Assembly (NCBI RefSeq): GCF_900465055.1
Contig: NZ_LS483250.1
Span: forward strand, 806,001 to 870,000
DNA: 64,000 nt
Source: Moritella yayanosii
GTDB taxonomy: Bacteria; Pseudomonadota; Gammaproteobacteria; Enterobacterales; Moritellaceae
Reading direction: 5' to 3'
Shown here: positions 18,089-22,486 of the stretch, piece by piece
Layout of the letters: each line of letters starts with the position of its first letter
Position numbering within the stretch: the first letter of the stretch is position 1
The notes under the pieces: model-generated
Told to the model about the DNA's origin: nothing
Databases searched by the model: none
Seen by the model: only the letters and a program-made list of their open reading frames with translations
Translations under genes and position numbers: made by a program

Positions 18089-19414
18089 CTAAATATTAAG
18101 TCGTAGATTTGATTCGACTTCATCAATTAATGATAGTGGGACTGCTTGTTCGGTAGCTAGCACACGCCACGTCGATACATGTTGTGTGATCTCGTTGATG
18201 GTTTCATCTATGAGTTTTTTAGTAAATAGGGGGCTTAGTGTACCCAGACTATAGAAGTCACTACGCTCAAAATGGTCACGCTTACCGTTGAGTGTCATCC
18301 AGTGACAACTTACCCAATGACTATCTGGCTTGTAAGAGTATGCAATGTCGTAAGCGGGAGAAAGAGACCAGACTCCGGCATCGTTCATCATGAATCCAAA
18401 GTTCTTTGAGTGATCGTCATGGTTGCGCGATATGATATTAAAGATTAAGCGTCTCAATAGCTGCATAGCCTCTGGCGCTTTCAACCTCAGTTGACGGACG
18501 ACTCCAAACAATTCCTCATACGAGAATGAACCTGCTTGCTTGTAGCTAACATGTGCCATTGCATTCAGGGTCTGTACATGTACGCGTTTGTTTCCGATTC
18601 TATCGAAACGCTGGGTGATAAAGTGGCGGCGATCACCTTCGTTCAAGAGCTGAGTTGGCATCATATCAATACCGCAAAGCTTATTTGCCATGAGATAATA
18701 CGTATATTCCATCGCGCCGTAACCTAACGGATCACCAAATGTCTCTTTGTTCTTGTTGTGCTCACTGACACCATCAAATTTCATTAAGTAATGGGTAAAT
18801 CCTTTAGGAACTTCAACTTGCCCAGATCGCACTTCGCTAAAATCCTTGTTAAATGCTAAAACCGCTTTAGGTCTAGCACCACCGGCGCTCATTCCAACAG
18901 ACATAAGCTCTAACATGGCGTCTTTGTCTTCACGGCCAGCATGATCAAGTTCGACTCCAAAGTCTTGTCTCTCAGAAAGAATGTTTTGAGCGACAGAAAC
19001 CAGAGACTTGATTTCTATCTCTTGCGACTTATTGAAAGAGTTACCGTATTTCTTTGCCGGGGAGTAAGACAATGCACCCATACCTCTCGCGCCAGTATAC
19101 TTTAGGCGCTCAAGCGGGGTTATCTCACTGGGTAATCGTCCGTTTCGGGCTACCCAAGCATTAAGGACTGTATTACCGAAATCATCTGGTAAAGAGTCGG
19201 CCAAAAGCCCAGAAAGACCTTTAAAGGTGGCGTGATCGATTGATGGGAATGAATAAATCTTCTTGGAGAGTGGCATCATTAGCGGAGATAGTTCAATGCC
19301 ACTCGAAATGAAGCTAGGGTCGTATTCAAACGCGCTTTGTTTTGTCACTGGGTCGTAACTGGCTGCGCCGACAGCAAGGTCGTTATAACTGACCTCAATA
19401 ACTTCTTTTACCAT
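18089..19414 (-). CDS. hipA: HipA-family serine/threonine kinase toxin
   Basis: A 441-residue kinase toxin of a type II toxin-antitoxin module; E. coli HipA phosphorylates glutamyl-tRNA synthetase and induces dormancy. Seen: the N-subdomain-1 region GLLADSLPDDFGN, the LTPLERL-like TPLERLKYTGARGMGALSY, the ATP-binding loop SAGGARPKAVLAFN, catalytic NHDDHSKNFGF near residue 320, and the metal-binding SPAYDIAYSY near 343. Length equals the usual ~440. Its start overlaps the end of the antitoxin gene by 7 bases, so the two are translationally coupled. It looks intact. The target here is not readable from sequence. Confidence 0.93.
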   Translation of the reverse strand: MVKEVIEVSYNDLAVGAASYDPVTKQSAFEYDPSFISSGIELSPLMMPLSKKIYSFPSIDHATFKGLSGLLADSLPDDFGNTVLNAWVARNGRLPSEITPLERLKYTGARGMGALSYSPAKKYGNSFNKSQEIEIKSLVSVAQNILSERQDFGVELDHAGREDKDAMLELMSVGMSAGGARPKAVLAFNKDFSEVRSGQVEVPKGFTHYLMKFDGVSEHNKNKETFGDPLGYGAMEYTYYLMANKLCGIDMMPTQLLNEGDRRHFITQRFDRIGNKRVHVQTLNAMAHVSYKQAGSFSYEELFGVVRQLRLKAPEAMQLLRRLIFNIISRNHDDHSKNFGFMMNDAGVWSLSPAYDIAYSYKPDSHWVSCHWMTLNGKRDHFERSDFYSLGTLSPLFTKKLIDETINEITQHVSTWRVLATEQAVPLSLIDEVESNLRLNI

Positions 19415-19749
19415 CCTAGGTTATCCTCGTTTACGGGTGCTTGTTGTTGTTCTCTTGGACTAGATGCTCTTTTTCGTTCATTCCCATGGAGTTGGGCAAG
19501 CTGAACCGGCGACACCTGGGTTGCAGGAAGAAAAATATCTATTTGATCAATAACGTCCAGCGCCTGCATAATAATGACCATGGTTTCGAGTGAGCATTGC
19601 CCATTCTCAGCATTGGCTATCTTTTTACGGGTTAACCCTACATCTTTTGCGATTGAAGCTTGAGTTTTGTTCGCGTTAAGGCGGTAGGTTTTTAGTCTTT
19701 CACCAATCACCGTGGCGATTGCAGGTGCTGTCATGCTTGAATATTTCAT
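19408..19749 (-). CDS. hipB: HipB-family XRE antitoxin
   Basis: A 113-residue DNA-binding antitoxin. The helix-turn-helix spans about residues 12-68: IGERLKTYRLNANKTQASIAKD, then VGLTRKKIANAENGQCSLETMVIIMQALDV. The C-terminal tail rich in Gln, Arg and Pro probably contacts HipA. It is first in the hipBA operon. Upstream at 19750-19890 there are several related AT-rich phrases (ATGCTCATTAT, ATGCTCACTAA, AATGCTCCATA) that may be operators for autorepression (inference). Confidence 0.9.
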   Translation of the reverse strand: MKYSSMTAPAIATVIGERLKTYRLNANKTQASIAKDVGLTRKKIANAENGQCSLETMVIIMQALDVIDQIDIFLPATQVSPVQLAQLHGNERKRASSPREQQQAPVNEDNLGW

Positions 19750-20201: not shown

Positions 20202-20468
20202 CTAGGATCGATTCAAAATAGCATCTTGAATTCCAATTAGTATATTCAGTATTAGATTAGTTAAATTTGAAAATTTTAATAATGACAGTTCAGCAAAATT
20301 ATATCGAATAGTTAGCTAGATTAAAGCTGAAATTATTACCAGGTTAAAAACTGTAAATCTAGACTCAGCTAATAAGTGATAACGAGCACTGTGTTAATCG
20401 TGATGAAAAGAACTTCATTGGTTATGCAAAAATATTCGCGTGATTGAAAGAACTGGAACAAACGAGAC

Positions 20469-21392
20469 TTACTCGGTAGCTTTAATGCCATTTTTCTTGT
20501 ATTGAGTATAAAGTGGCTGTATAACGATAACGATTAAGCTACTTGCTAAAATTAATCCTCCACCAATAATTGTTATCTGGTTTAACTCTTCTCCTAAATA
20601 CATAACCGCTATAAAAATCGATATAACTGGCGATAACAATGTTGAGTATGTTGTAAATTCAGCACTTTCCAATCTAATTAATGTAAACCAAAGATAATAA
20701 ACAAGCGCAGAGCCAATGCTTCCTATGTAAAAGATGCTCAATAGAACTGAAGGGGTAGAGACGATCGTTTTTGCTATTGAGCCTATATCAATACTATTAT
20801 TTAGATACCATATTAATGTTAGGCTCATTGTTAACATCAAAGTAAAAATCATTTGAATGGTGACAGTCACCGACATATGAACACCATCAAAAGAAATACG
20901 TTGCGACAAGATTGCCCCCAAGGCCCATATAACGGCATTAGCAAACATCAAGTATTCTCCTAACTGAAATTCGTTTGATTTGGACAGAAGTAATACACCT
21001 AGCCCACAAAATATAATGGCAAACACAGTTAGAAAATGCACCTTTTTGGTAAAGTACATGGTAAATAAACTCGTAATGCAAGGCATCATATATATGATAA
21101 ACGTCGCGCTTGAAACCGTTGTTAGTCCAAGGGCAATGTTGTTAATTAGCGGGACTATAAAAATATTAGGTATACATAATATAAATAACTTTAAATAATC
21201 ACTTCGATCTATTTTATTTATGTGTTTTTTTAAGTATGGGAGCGCAAAAGCGGTAATGACTAAAGTTGAAACGAAAATAGTAGAGAGCCGGAATGGGAAT
21301 GCACCTATCTGTAGTATTCCCATTTGCGATATAGGAAAGCTACTCCCCCAAATAATCCCCATAGCTATCGCGATTAACATTGATTTTCCCAT
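20469..21392 (-). CDS. DMT/EamA-family permease
   Basis: A 307-residue inner-membrane transporter with about ten hydrophobic helices in two EamA repeats. Seen: the opening AMGIIWGSSFPISQMGI, the repeat-1 end with GLGVLLLSKS, and the repeat-2 start EYLMFANAVIWALGAILSQR. The family exports amino acids, metabolites or drugs; the substrate is unknown. Its ATG overlaps the stop of the upstream oxygenase fragment in a TGATG arrangement, so the two were translationally coupled. This hints that the permease once handled a product of that oxygenase (inference). The oxygenase is now truncated, so expression of the permease may depend on a new promoter. Confidence 0.82.
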   Translation of the reverse strand: MGKSMLIAIAMGIIWGSSFPISQMGILQIGAFPFRLSTIFVSTLVITAFALPYLKKHINKIDRSDYLKLFILCIPNIFIVPLINNIALGLTTVSSATFIIYMMPCITSLFTMYFTKKVHFLTVFAIIFCGLGVLLLSKSNEFQLGEYLMFANAVIWALGAILSQRISFDGVHMSVTVTIQMIFTLMLTMSLTLIWYLNNSIDIGSIAKTIVSTPSVLLSIFYIGSIGSALVYYLWFTLIRLESAEFTTYSTLLSPVISIFIAVMYLGEELNQITIIGGGLILASSLIVIVIQPLYTQYKKNGIKATE

Positions 21393-21790
21393 CAGTCAAA
21401 CCTAGCAATAATTGACATTCTTTTTCCTGATCTTTCAGTTGAAACCGTAGACACAAAATGAGGGATATTATTTTCTTTCGAGTCGAACAGAAACATTTGG
21501 CCAAAGGTTGGCGTTAATGAGTCCACAATATTTAAATATTGATCGATAATGTGAGTTATTCCACCAAAAGTTGGTAACCAGTTTTTGGTGATGTTTATCG
21601 CAATTCCTATATTATTACCGCCATCACTATGAATTCCTAGAAAATCACCGTAATCAAATAAATTGATATAAAACTGATTCATGTCACCAATTTGTCTTCC
21701 CTTGGATTCAAATAAGTAAGTGCATAACTTGAAAAGGTAGAAGAAACGGTCAGTTGAATATATGCTGATCGCTTTTTCTCCGGCAAGAGA
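21392..21790 (-). pseudogene. 2-oxoglutarate/Fe(II) oxygenase, N-terminus lost
   Basis: Only the catalytic C-terminal half of a 2OG-Fe(II) dioxygenase (prolyl-hydroxylase-like) survives. Seen: iron ligands in GIHSDGG (H and D of HxD), the strand LPTFGG, the distal histidine in IPHFVSTV, and the 2OG-binding RSGKRMSI arginine. The open frame from the ATG at 21682 is 96 residues. Reading further upstream, the same frame stays protein-like (LFKLCTYLFESKGRQIGD) to about 21770, so the true gene was longer and its start was removed where IS30 sequence now begins. Substrate unknown. Confidence 0.7.
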
Positions 21791-21797
21791 TGCAACA

Positions 21798-21912
21798 ATG
21801 AAAACATATAAACAACTGACCTATGAACAACGATGCCATATTTATGCACTAAAGAAAATAGGTTTAGGTCAAAATAAAATAGCGAAGCAACTAAAAGTTA
21901 GCCAATCCATGA
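21798..21912 (+). mobile_element. IS30-family transposase, N-terminal fragment
   Basis: The ATG at 21798 opens MKTYKQLTYEQRCHIYALKKIGLGQNKIAKQLKVSQS, the N-terminal HTH of an IS30-type DDE transposase (normally ~320 residues). After VSQS the sequence passes into the 3' side of the oppositely oriented ISNCY-type gene at about 21905-21915. The element is therefore reduced to under 40 codons and is dead. Confidence 0.82.
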
Positions 21913-22406
21913 TGAGAACCGTCAATTTGTATGAGCTCACCAACGCAATCACGACGATAGCGAGGTTGATATACTTGAGGCTTACGTTTGGCATGCGGCA
22001 ACCATAGACCGTCAGTGATCATCCATTGACGCAGGGTTTCAACACCAACTGAGATAGCATGTAGTTCGGTGAGTTTTTCGTGTGCGAGAGTTGGACCAAA
22101 ATCTTGATAATGGATTTGAACCAGGTCAAGAACGTGTTGTTTGAATTTATAGGAATGGTGGTGATTACTTGGCTGGCCACGTTTATGTGAAATCAAACCT
22201 TCGGCACCATGTTTTAAATATTGCTTCGTCAGTCGATATACTTGCCGTGGACTTAGGTTAAGAAGCGCGGCAGCATCGACGCCAGAGATGCGTTTATCAA
22301 TAACATTTTTGATGGTATTAATTTTGTATATTTCAATATCAGTCATAGTCAGTAACATCATGTAGGTCCAGAGCGTCGAATTGATGCTCTGAAGATAGTT
22401 CAACAT
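21891..22406 (-). pseudogene. ISNCY-family transposase, C-terminal half lost
   Basis: 171 residues remain. Seen: an HTH with RISGVDAAALLNLSPRQVYRLTKQYLKHG, a basic linker ISHKRGQPSNHH, a second HTH-like SVGVETLRQWM, and the first catalytic acid of the DDE domain in LIQIDGSHH. The frame then reads five junk residues (GLANF) and stops at the junction to the IS30 fragment. A full transposase would be 400-470 residues. Probable start is one of two ATGs, at 22406 or inside (MTDIEIYK). Confidence 0.82.
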
Positions 22407-22453
22407 GACATTTCTAACGGTGACAAACCTGACATCTCTAACGGGGACCTACA
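21905..22453 (-). mobile_element. Truncated ISNCY/IS1202-type insertion sequence abutting dif
   Basis: The remaining end is on the dif side. Its terminus appears to be TGTAGGTCCCC on the minus strand, ending at 22453. Two 15-bp subterminal direct repeats, TGACATTTCTAACGG (22406-22420) and TGACATCTCTAACGG (22430-22444), differ at one base and look like transposase binding sites. Exactly five bases separate 22453 from the outer base of dif. The other end is lost at the IS30 junction. Confidence 0.75.
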
Positions 22454-22458
22454 ATAGC

Positions 22459-22486
22459 ACTGCGCATAATGTATATTATGTTAAAT
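22459..22486 (+). other. dif: Chromosomal dif site (XerCD recombination site)
   Basis: The 28-bp sequence equals the E. coli dif consensus at 26 positions; only the first two bases differ (AC for GG). XerC arm 22459-22469 ends GCGCATAA, the central region is TGTATA (22470-22475), and the XerD arm TTATGTTAAAT is 22476-22486. This is where XerC/XerD with FtsK resolve chromosome dimers, so the window spans the replication terminus. Confidence 0.95.

Follow-up and report, generated by a model that had tools for sequence, protein, structure and literature searches.

The stretch of DNA analysed here, the window, comprises 64,000 nucleotides of Moritella yayanosii (bases 806,001-870,000 of a 4,433,651-bp single-contig genome) and contains, at 22459-22486, a dif site with the end of an insertion sequence (IS) close to its XerC arm (Table 1). 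The site, ACTGCGCATAA TGTATA TTATGTTAAAT, agrees at 26 of 28 positions with the sequence that we take to be E. coli dif, and the next-best 28-mers in the window score 20; an earlier sequence-only reading had placed dif here with the same score, and that assignment holds. The 18-bp core has one exact occurrence in the genome, and four more places were found with two or three mismatches, a number equalled by the reversed control. The 11-6-11 bp layout of the XerC and XerD arms, the single occurrence and the position are those of a chromosomal dif: it lies at 828,459-828,486 and dnaA at 3,048,480, a separation of 2.22 of 4.43 Mb. With the single contig assumed to be circular, dif is opposite dnaA, at the terminus. 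A dif was located in 10 of 11 Moritella genomes, and the one in the window is identical at 28 of 28 positions to that of six of the nine others, so that its continued function is plausible. Frames of the size of XerC and XerD, which presumably encode these recombinases, are present in the genomes. About 3 kb from dif, at 18089-19749, a HipA-like kinase gene and an upstream HTH gene form a toxin-antitoxin-like pair.

Table 1. Features at and beside dif in the window (positions of the window)
Feature	Position	Strand	Evidence or remark
XerC arm of chromosomal dif (ACTGCGCATAA)	22459..22469	+	Sequence, genome core scan, genus comparison
Central spacer of dif, TGTATA	22470..22475	+	Sequence, genus comparison
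XerD arm of dif (TTATGTTAAAT)	22476..22486	+	Sequence, genus comparison
5-bp gap ATAGC, interpreted as the target-duplication copy next to dif, distal copy lost	22454..22458	.	ATAGC-dif also in G006
Left 546 bp of a 1,559-bp IS1202-family IS, terminus TGTAGGTCCCC at 22453	21908..22453	-	100% identity to two complete copies
Outer subterminal 15-bp repeat, putative transposase site	22430..22444	-	Role by analogy with ISAjo2 (PMC10132070, sections drawn on here)
Inner subterminal 15-bp repeat	22406..22420	-	Sequence
Truncated transposase frame, 171 aa	21891..22406	-	162.6 bits with NCBIfam transpos_ISNCY_2, less than the cut-off of 250 set for the whole protein
Other transposase fragment (HTH_38), joined to the inner IS break	21798..21907	+	Domain and frame search
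Stretch with no match in G006	20386..21907	.	Genus flank comparison

The IS piece lies 5 bp outside the XerC arm, where the dif-like score is 19/19. From 22453 inward to 21908 it is identical at 546 of 546 positions to two complete copies elsewhere in the genome, which confirms the terminus proposed from the letters of the window. The two 15-bp subterminal repeats (CCGTTAGARATGTCA) described with it occupy IS positions 10-24 and 34-48, that is, window 22444-22430 and 22420-22406, and the transposase was rightly described as a truncated one of ISNCY/IS1202 type: 171 residues remain of 469 (counted from the first ATG), and the full protein scores 500 bits against transpos_ISNCY_2 (cut-off 250). 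Calling the piece a relic, as that reading did, is not appropriate, for it is neither old nor decayed, with 0 mismatches to intact copies. Because identity to the complete copies is total, the piece represents a recent insertion, which was probably truncated later. The fragment joined to its inner break we take to be of IS30 type. The unmatched stretch contains an EamA transporter, a fragment of a 2OG-Fe(II) oxygenase and a second transposase fragment; together with the IS piece it replaces about 300 bp that adjoin dif in G006, the relative with the most similar flanks.

The complete copies, both of 1,559 bp, lie at 1.356 Mb and 4.21 Mb. The first is flanked by a 5-bp duplication, TTTAA, which is followed on one side by CCTGCGCATAA CGCATG TTATGGTTAAT and on the far side by TGTAGGTCCC, apparently the end of an older element. 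The second has a 6-bp duplication, TCCAAC, followed by ACAACAACTGT TAGCGT TTATGTTCAAT, a site whose XerD arm agrees at 10 of 11 bases and whose XerC arm agrees at 2 of 8 informative bases. All three close copies in the genome are thus at dif or a dif-like site with the gap set by the duplication, that of the window copy, ATAGC, being 5 bp with its duplication partner lost; a fourth transposase match is weak (42% over 66 residues). The sequence-only reading had taken the spacing beside dif to fit a five-base duplication and had looked to full-length copies for a check: their ends are as predicted, with a duplication of 5 or 6 bp and a dif-like site at exactly that distance.

The IS has TGT/ACA ends and inverted repeats matching at 17 of 26 positions (TGTAGGTCCCC and the reverse complement of TGTTAAACCCC); at the right end, motifs related to the 15-bp repeat occur about 24 and 49 bp inward and are putative transposase sites. 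The transposase contains D162, D223 and E267, with Q at E+7. According to the sections of Harmer, Pong and Hall (2023; PMC10132070) drawn on here, the ISAjo2/ISAba71/ISAba32 group of the IS1202 family comprises elements of about 1.5 kb with TGT...ACA ends, imperfect inverted repeats (24-26 bp in ISAjo2-type elements) and inner repeats; the DDE transposase has Q seven residues after E and, in ISAjo2, is modelled with two N-terminal HTH domains and a TnsB/Mu-like fold. The duplication is 5 bp and once 6 (3-5, or 6, for the type), and insertion leaves 5 bp between the left end and the XerC arm and has a fixed orientation, chromosomal dif being among the targets (PMC10132070, same sections). Size class, ends, DDE with Q, duplication, gap and orientation are common to that group, as there described, and to the present element, which belongs to the IS1202 family and is ISAjo2-type; what differs is the Moritella host, the length of 1,559 bp and a transposase about 54% identical to the plasmid-borne Acinetobacter proteins among the matches listed. 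ISLad2-type transposases are among the closest named (about 61% among the matches listed). ISLad2, ISKpn21 and ISSen13, with short duplications and dif-like targets, come from Enterobacterales (Table 8 of PMC10132070, in the part considered), whereas the present target is the chromosomal terminus of a marine bacterium.

The same sections of PMC10132070 report dif-site targeting in Acinetobacter and other hosts and propose contact with XerC, so that targeting of chromosomal dif by the ISAjo2 group is already published and hence not new here; the mention, in the sequence-only reading, of IS1202-group elements about 5 bp from the XerC arm at XerC/XerD sites is borne out in print. What goes beyond those sections is the equality of duplication and gap, the types with 15 or 16 bp, a gap of 5 despite changes of spacer, a block in the dif flank of the genus and one genome in which two IS ends stand in place of dif, and the host range of dif targeting is widened to Moritella, Photobacterium, Vibrio, Shewanella and phage-like contigs. 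A likeness to Tn7 and TnsB, in the TGT/ACA ends and the several transposase sites near each end, is also noted there (PMC10132070). The present element is unlike Tn7 in having no TnsA, C, D or E partners and in its target, an XerCD site. Tn7 also makes a 5-bp stagger. Siguier et al. are reportedly the authors of a 2023 paper on the IS1202 family. Among titles and abstract starts of the open literature, neither 15/16-bp elements at dif nor family elements on filamentous phages were found.

Relatives were collected from the genus (11 genomes, six with matches), the order (394 genomes, 13 with strong matches), genome contigs (the best 80 of 341) and viral contigs (17). An automatic end-caller missed many ends and was dropped, and ends were called instead by the motif TGT-N15-ATGTC / GACAT-N15-ACA, which gave 109 distinct left ends; these are counts of ends, not of independent events. 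In a scan that let the spacer length vary and applied a single threshold (13.5 of 19), 79 of the 109 left ends had a dif-like site at 5 bp (65), 6 bp (7) or 15 bp (7), three had one at another gap (3, 7 and 29), and 27 scored below 13.5, 11 of them facing another IS end and the rest being partly unexplained. A laxer score at some of the expected gaps raises the count at 5, 6 or 15 bp to 82 of 109, 79 being the count at uniform threshold. Random windows reach 13.5 at any gap in 1.3% of cases, and a site scoring at least 14 occurs near a random point in 1.2%. Right ends reached the threshold in five of 97 cases, two at 16 bp and one at 5. In a fixed-spacer scan the XerC arm was proximal in all 72 left ends scoring at least 13, and the best site in the opposite orientation scored 12. 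Family copies are therefore not scattered away from XerCD sites, the outcome that the sequence-only reading had named as counting against it.

In 39 of the 44 copies with a duplication of at least 4 bp, the duplicated stretch is exactly as long as the gap that separates the IS from the XerC arm (30 at 5, four at 6, three at 15 and two at 16); for this count, sites scoring as low as 12 were allowed at gaps of 5, 6, 15 and 16, which admits the copy at 4.21 Mb. Among the five exceptions, L144 aligns best at a gap of 3; L172 (second end) and L190 are both behind another IS, and L201 (5-bp duplication) and L212 (4-bp) have no convincing site. It follows from the 39 equalities that one cut falls at the outer edge of the XerC arm. 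An IS without target preference might have landed beside dif by chance, and a single event such as that in the window could alone be so explained; with three of three copies in this genome, 79 of 109 left ends at expected distances and duplication equal to gap in 39 of 44, the counts already refute this, and we give it practically no weight.

Among ends scoring at least 13.5, the gap is 5 at 14 of 15 sites with a spacer other than 6 bp; sequence conservation is seen in both arms but hardly in the 5-bp gap, where it amounts to 0.0-0.5 bits per base (n = 25 and 39). The constancy of the gap over changes of spacer, and the near absence of consensus within it, point to an anchor on the XerC side, which would likely be read through bound XerC. 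Five left ends, that of the copy at 4.21 Mb included, combine a weak XerC arm with a strong XerD arm (the other four with XerC 4/8 and XerD 10), and one shows the reverse; since some targets thus have a poor XerC arm and a good XerD arm, XerD or DNA shape may be as important as XerC.

Viral contigs, several of which have the size of a filamentous phage, contributed 17 loci. The motif identified a left end in 12 of these, and for every one of the 12 the best placement leaves 5 bp to the XerC arm, the arms being separated by 7 bp (six), 11 bp (four), 13 bp (one) or 6 bp (one, a weak site). L261, on a Vibrio phage classed in the Tubulavirales, has a gap of 5 and arms 7 bp apart. Family elements are thus seen on phage genomes (the IMG/VR contigs L214-L229, and L261) at dif-like sites with mostly 7-13 bp spacers, and these sites are probably the attP of the phages.

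An alternative is that the transposase reads dif DNA directly, by its arms or as AT-rich bent DNA, with no Xer protein involved. Conservation of both arms in the targets would fit this, as would the two N-terminal HTH domains modelled for the ISAjo2 transposase (PMC10132070, sections as above), but the consensus of the XerC arm is not the same in Acinetobacter as in other hosts, the spacer varies from 6 to 13 bp with a gap of 5 held at 14 of 15 unusual-spacer sites, and some targets have a very poor XerC arm. On these three grounds a protein complex adapted to each host is the simpler account, and direct reading seems to us rather unlikely, if by some way the strongest of the competitors.

A further alternative dispenses with transposition at this locus: the IS end would have been brought to dif by homologous or XerCD recombination with an IS-bearing site. 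A possible donor type is seen at L084 in G003, where a very similar IS end is followed by the same ATAGC and the same XerC arm at a dif-like site with a different spacer; moreover, the segment adjoining dif is a replacement relative to G006 rather than a clean insertion, and the distal duplication is lost. Against this, the spacers of L084 and of the dif in the window differ. Differing spacers normally block XerCD exchange. The sequence-only reading had also proposed looking in relatives for the empty site, and ATAGC-dif without this IS is indeed found in G006, although immediately past ATAGC there is a block that looks like an older IS end. The flank is for this reason probably older than the IS, and we regard recombination as improbable.

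The reading that we prefer, with a probability of about 0.88, is that an ISAjo2-type IS was placed by targeted transposition at the Moritella dif, the XerCD site being read most likely via XerC together with XerD. The transposase would recognize the site most probably by XerC (with XerD) bound there; of the two strand transfers, one would coincide with the outer boundary of the XerC arm and the other would lie a fixed distance farther out, 5 bp (sometimes 6) here and 15 or 16 bp in two relatives, with the consequence that the gap between IS and XerC arm is the target duplication. In a later rearrangement, two thirds of the IS and the distal duplication would have been lost and the remainder joined to a fragment of another IS, with dif left intact; 20386-21907 may have been brought in by the same rearrangement. 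DDE elements that find a single host site unaided by helper proteins are, as far as is known, few. Should XerC be the beacon, transposition would be tied to chromosome segregation, the termini of many bacteria would be within reach, and repeat strikes on the same spot would be possible, another family end directly following in 12 of the 44 copies with a duplication.

The relatives with long staggers are of two types. Type-3 elements leave 15 bp between their left end and the XerC arm, and L077, L075 and L167 show duplications of that length (a Moritella sp. PE36 record repeats L077); the hosts are Moritella, Shewanella surugensis and two metagenome-assembled genomes, one labelled Aliivibrio and the other Flavobacteriaceae. 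In a relative from Shewanella benthica (80% identity) the gap is 5 bp, and L212, 69% identical, has a weak site with its 4-bp duplication. In two degenerate loci, L080 (G006:C8) and L082 (G010:C1:2014522), a type-3 left end faces a dif-like site across 15 bp and is joined to a type-1-like transposase remnant, so that stagger may follow end type. Type 2, from Moritella G010, makes 16-bp duplications with its right end inward (L071 and L074, the site of the latter having a full XerD arm and an XerC arm of 3/8), whereas a Photobacterium relative has 5 bp and the left end inward. On an Aliivibrio salmonicida plasmid, the right end of a relative lies 16 bp from ATTGCGCATTA TCGTCT TTATGTTCAAT; the 16-bp flanks agree in their last bases only, and the duplication is not clean. 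On this plasmid, pVSAL320 (L259), the type-2 IS shares 94% identity with that of Moritella and adjoins a class B site of the Moritella kind (see below), which suggests exchange of such units between genera.

The ISAjo2 group as described in the sections of PMC10132070 drawn on here differs from these two relatives, which duplicate 15 or 16 bp yet adjoin dif-like sites, one with its right end inward. Those sections also list IS1202 members with long duplications (IS1202, ISTde1, ISShha1 and ISVisp7; 16-28 bp), and at the left side, where examined, these have no dif-like targets (PMC10132070). The present 15/16-bp elements are 55-57% identical to the short-duplication element and fall outside that branch: in a maximum-likelihood tree, types 2 and 3 cluster with their 5-bp relatives (86/98), next to the main 5-bp group (92/89) and far from the ISShha1-like outgroup, the very long branch of which makes the rooting uncertain. 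The row L072m carries a wrong label, L5 (the locus has a 5-bp and a 15-bp element on one strand), and four label changes include this error. The ISShha1-like elements of Moritella, a name inferred from size, duplication and 32% identity, served as controls; none of three has a dif-like flank, and two have duplications of 16-17 bp. A search for type 3 in 369 genomes of the class gave seven loci besides the own genome: at L258 and L251 (53-54% identity) the IS lies 5 or 6 bp from a dif-like site, five loci of 46-49% identity have no dif-like flank at any end found, and one of these five, L255 (47%), has a 16-bp duplication with no dif-like site on either side. These last five loci and the three controls argue against widening the targeting to the distant family, and dif targeting with 15/16 bp is claimed for types 2 and 3 alone.

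Fifteen or 16 bp is about one helical turn more than 5 or 6 bp, and both staggers would therefore lie on the same face of the DNA. We would give even odds to a wider proposal, that within the branch (about 55% identity upwards) bound XerC is the ruler: one cut would fall at the outer edge of its arm at any arm spacing from 6 to 13 bp, and the other 5-6 or 15-16 bp out, with either IS end inward. Were this so, long duplications and dif targeting would be compatible, and these elements would be natural reporters of the positions of Xer complexes on chromosomes, plasmids and filamentous phages. Comparison of the classes with 5 and 15/16 bp also gives direct access to the way in which a transposase of this kind determines its stagger.

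The flank of dif has a history of its own in the genus. At the dif of nine other Moritella genomes a conserved block (..AACCCAGATAGAGATGTC..) opens the XerC-side flank (L231-L239) and resembles the left end of the family. A relaxed form of the end motif matches four of the nine blocks, at a distance of 2-4 bp from the arm (15 in L233, which has the block twice); the other five were judged by alignment and eye. No transposase remnant was found beside the block in these nine genomes. A decayed old IS end would be the simplest reading of the block; alternatively, it may be a conserved binding site. In the 5.1-Mb genome G010 no dif was found within three mismatches. In its expected place, at about 2,571,000 of C1 (L073), there are, as judged by eye, two inverted type-2 IS ends: the type-2 element starts where the XerC arm should start and is followed by an inverted partner and then by the far-side sequence. 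Family elements may thus harm dif.

Cassette-like arrays, in which the dif-like sites used by other copies of the IS are located, are also present in the genus, bounded by two classes of such site, mostly in one orientation (L084-L091, L100, L102 and L077, in G002-G010; in the own genome, sites at G000:C1:1355876, 1358338, 2270871 and 2952835). Class A is ACTGCGCATAA CGCATG TTATGTAAGAT and class B ..TGCGCATTA TCACCT TTATGTTCAAT; there is often one gene between B and A, and a conserved A-to-B unit of 141-260 bp. Within three mismatches, class A is found in 10 of 11 genomes of the genus and in none of 284 others of the order, with 0 in the reversed control. Reading the sites as integron attC was set aside, as they fit XerCD arms; IntI scores above cut-off in five of the 11 genomes, and arrays are present also in genomes without it. 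The arrays may be an integron-like system that uses the host XerCD, and their genes include those for GFA-like, MarR, Abi_2, MFS and beta-lactamase-family proteins.
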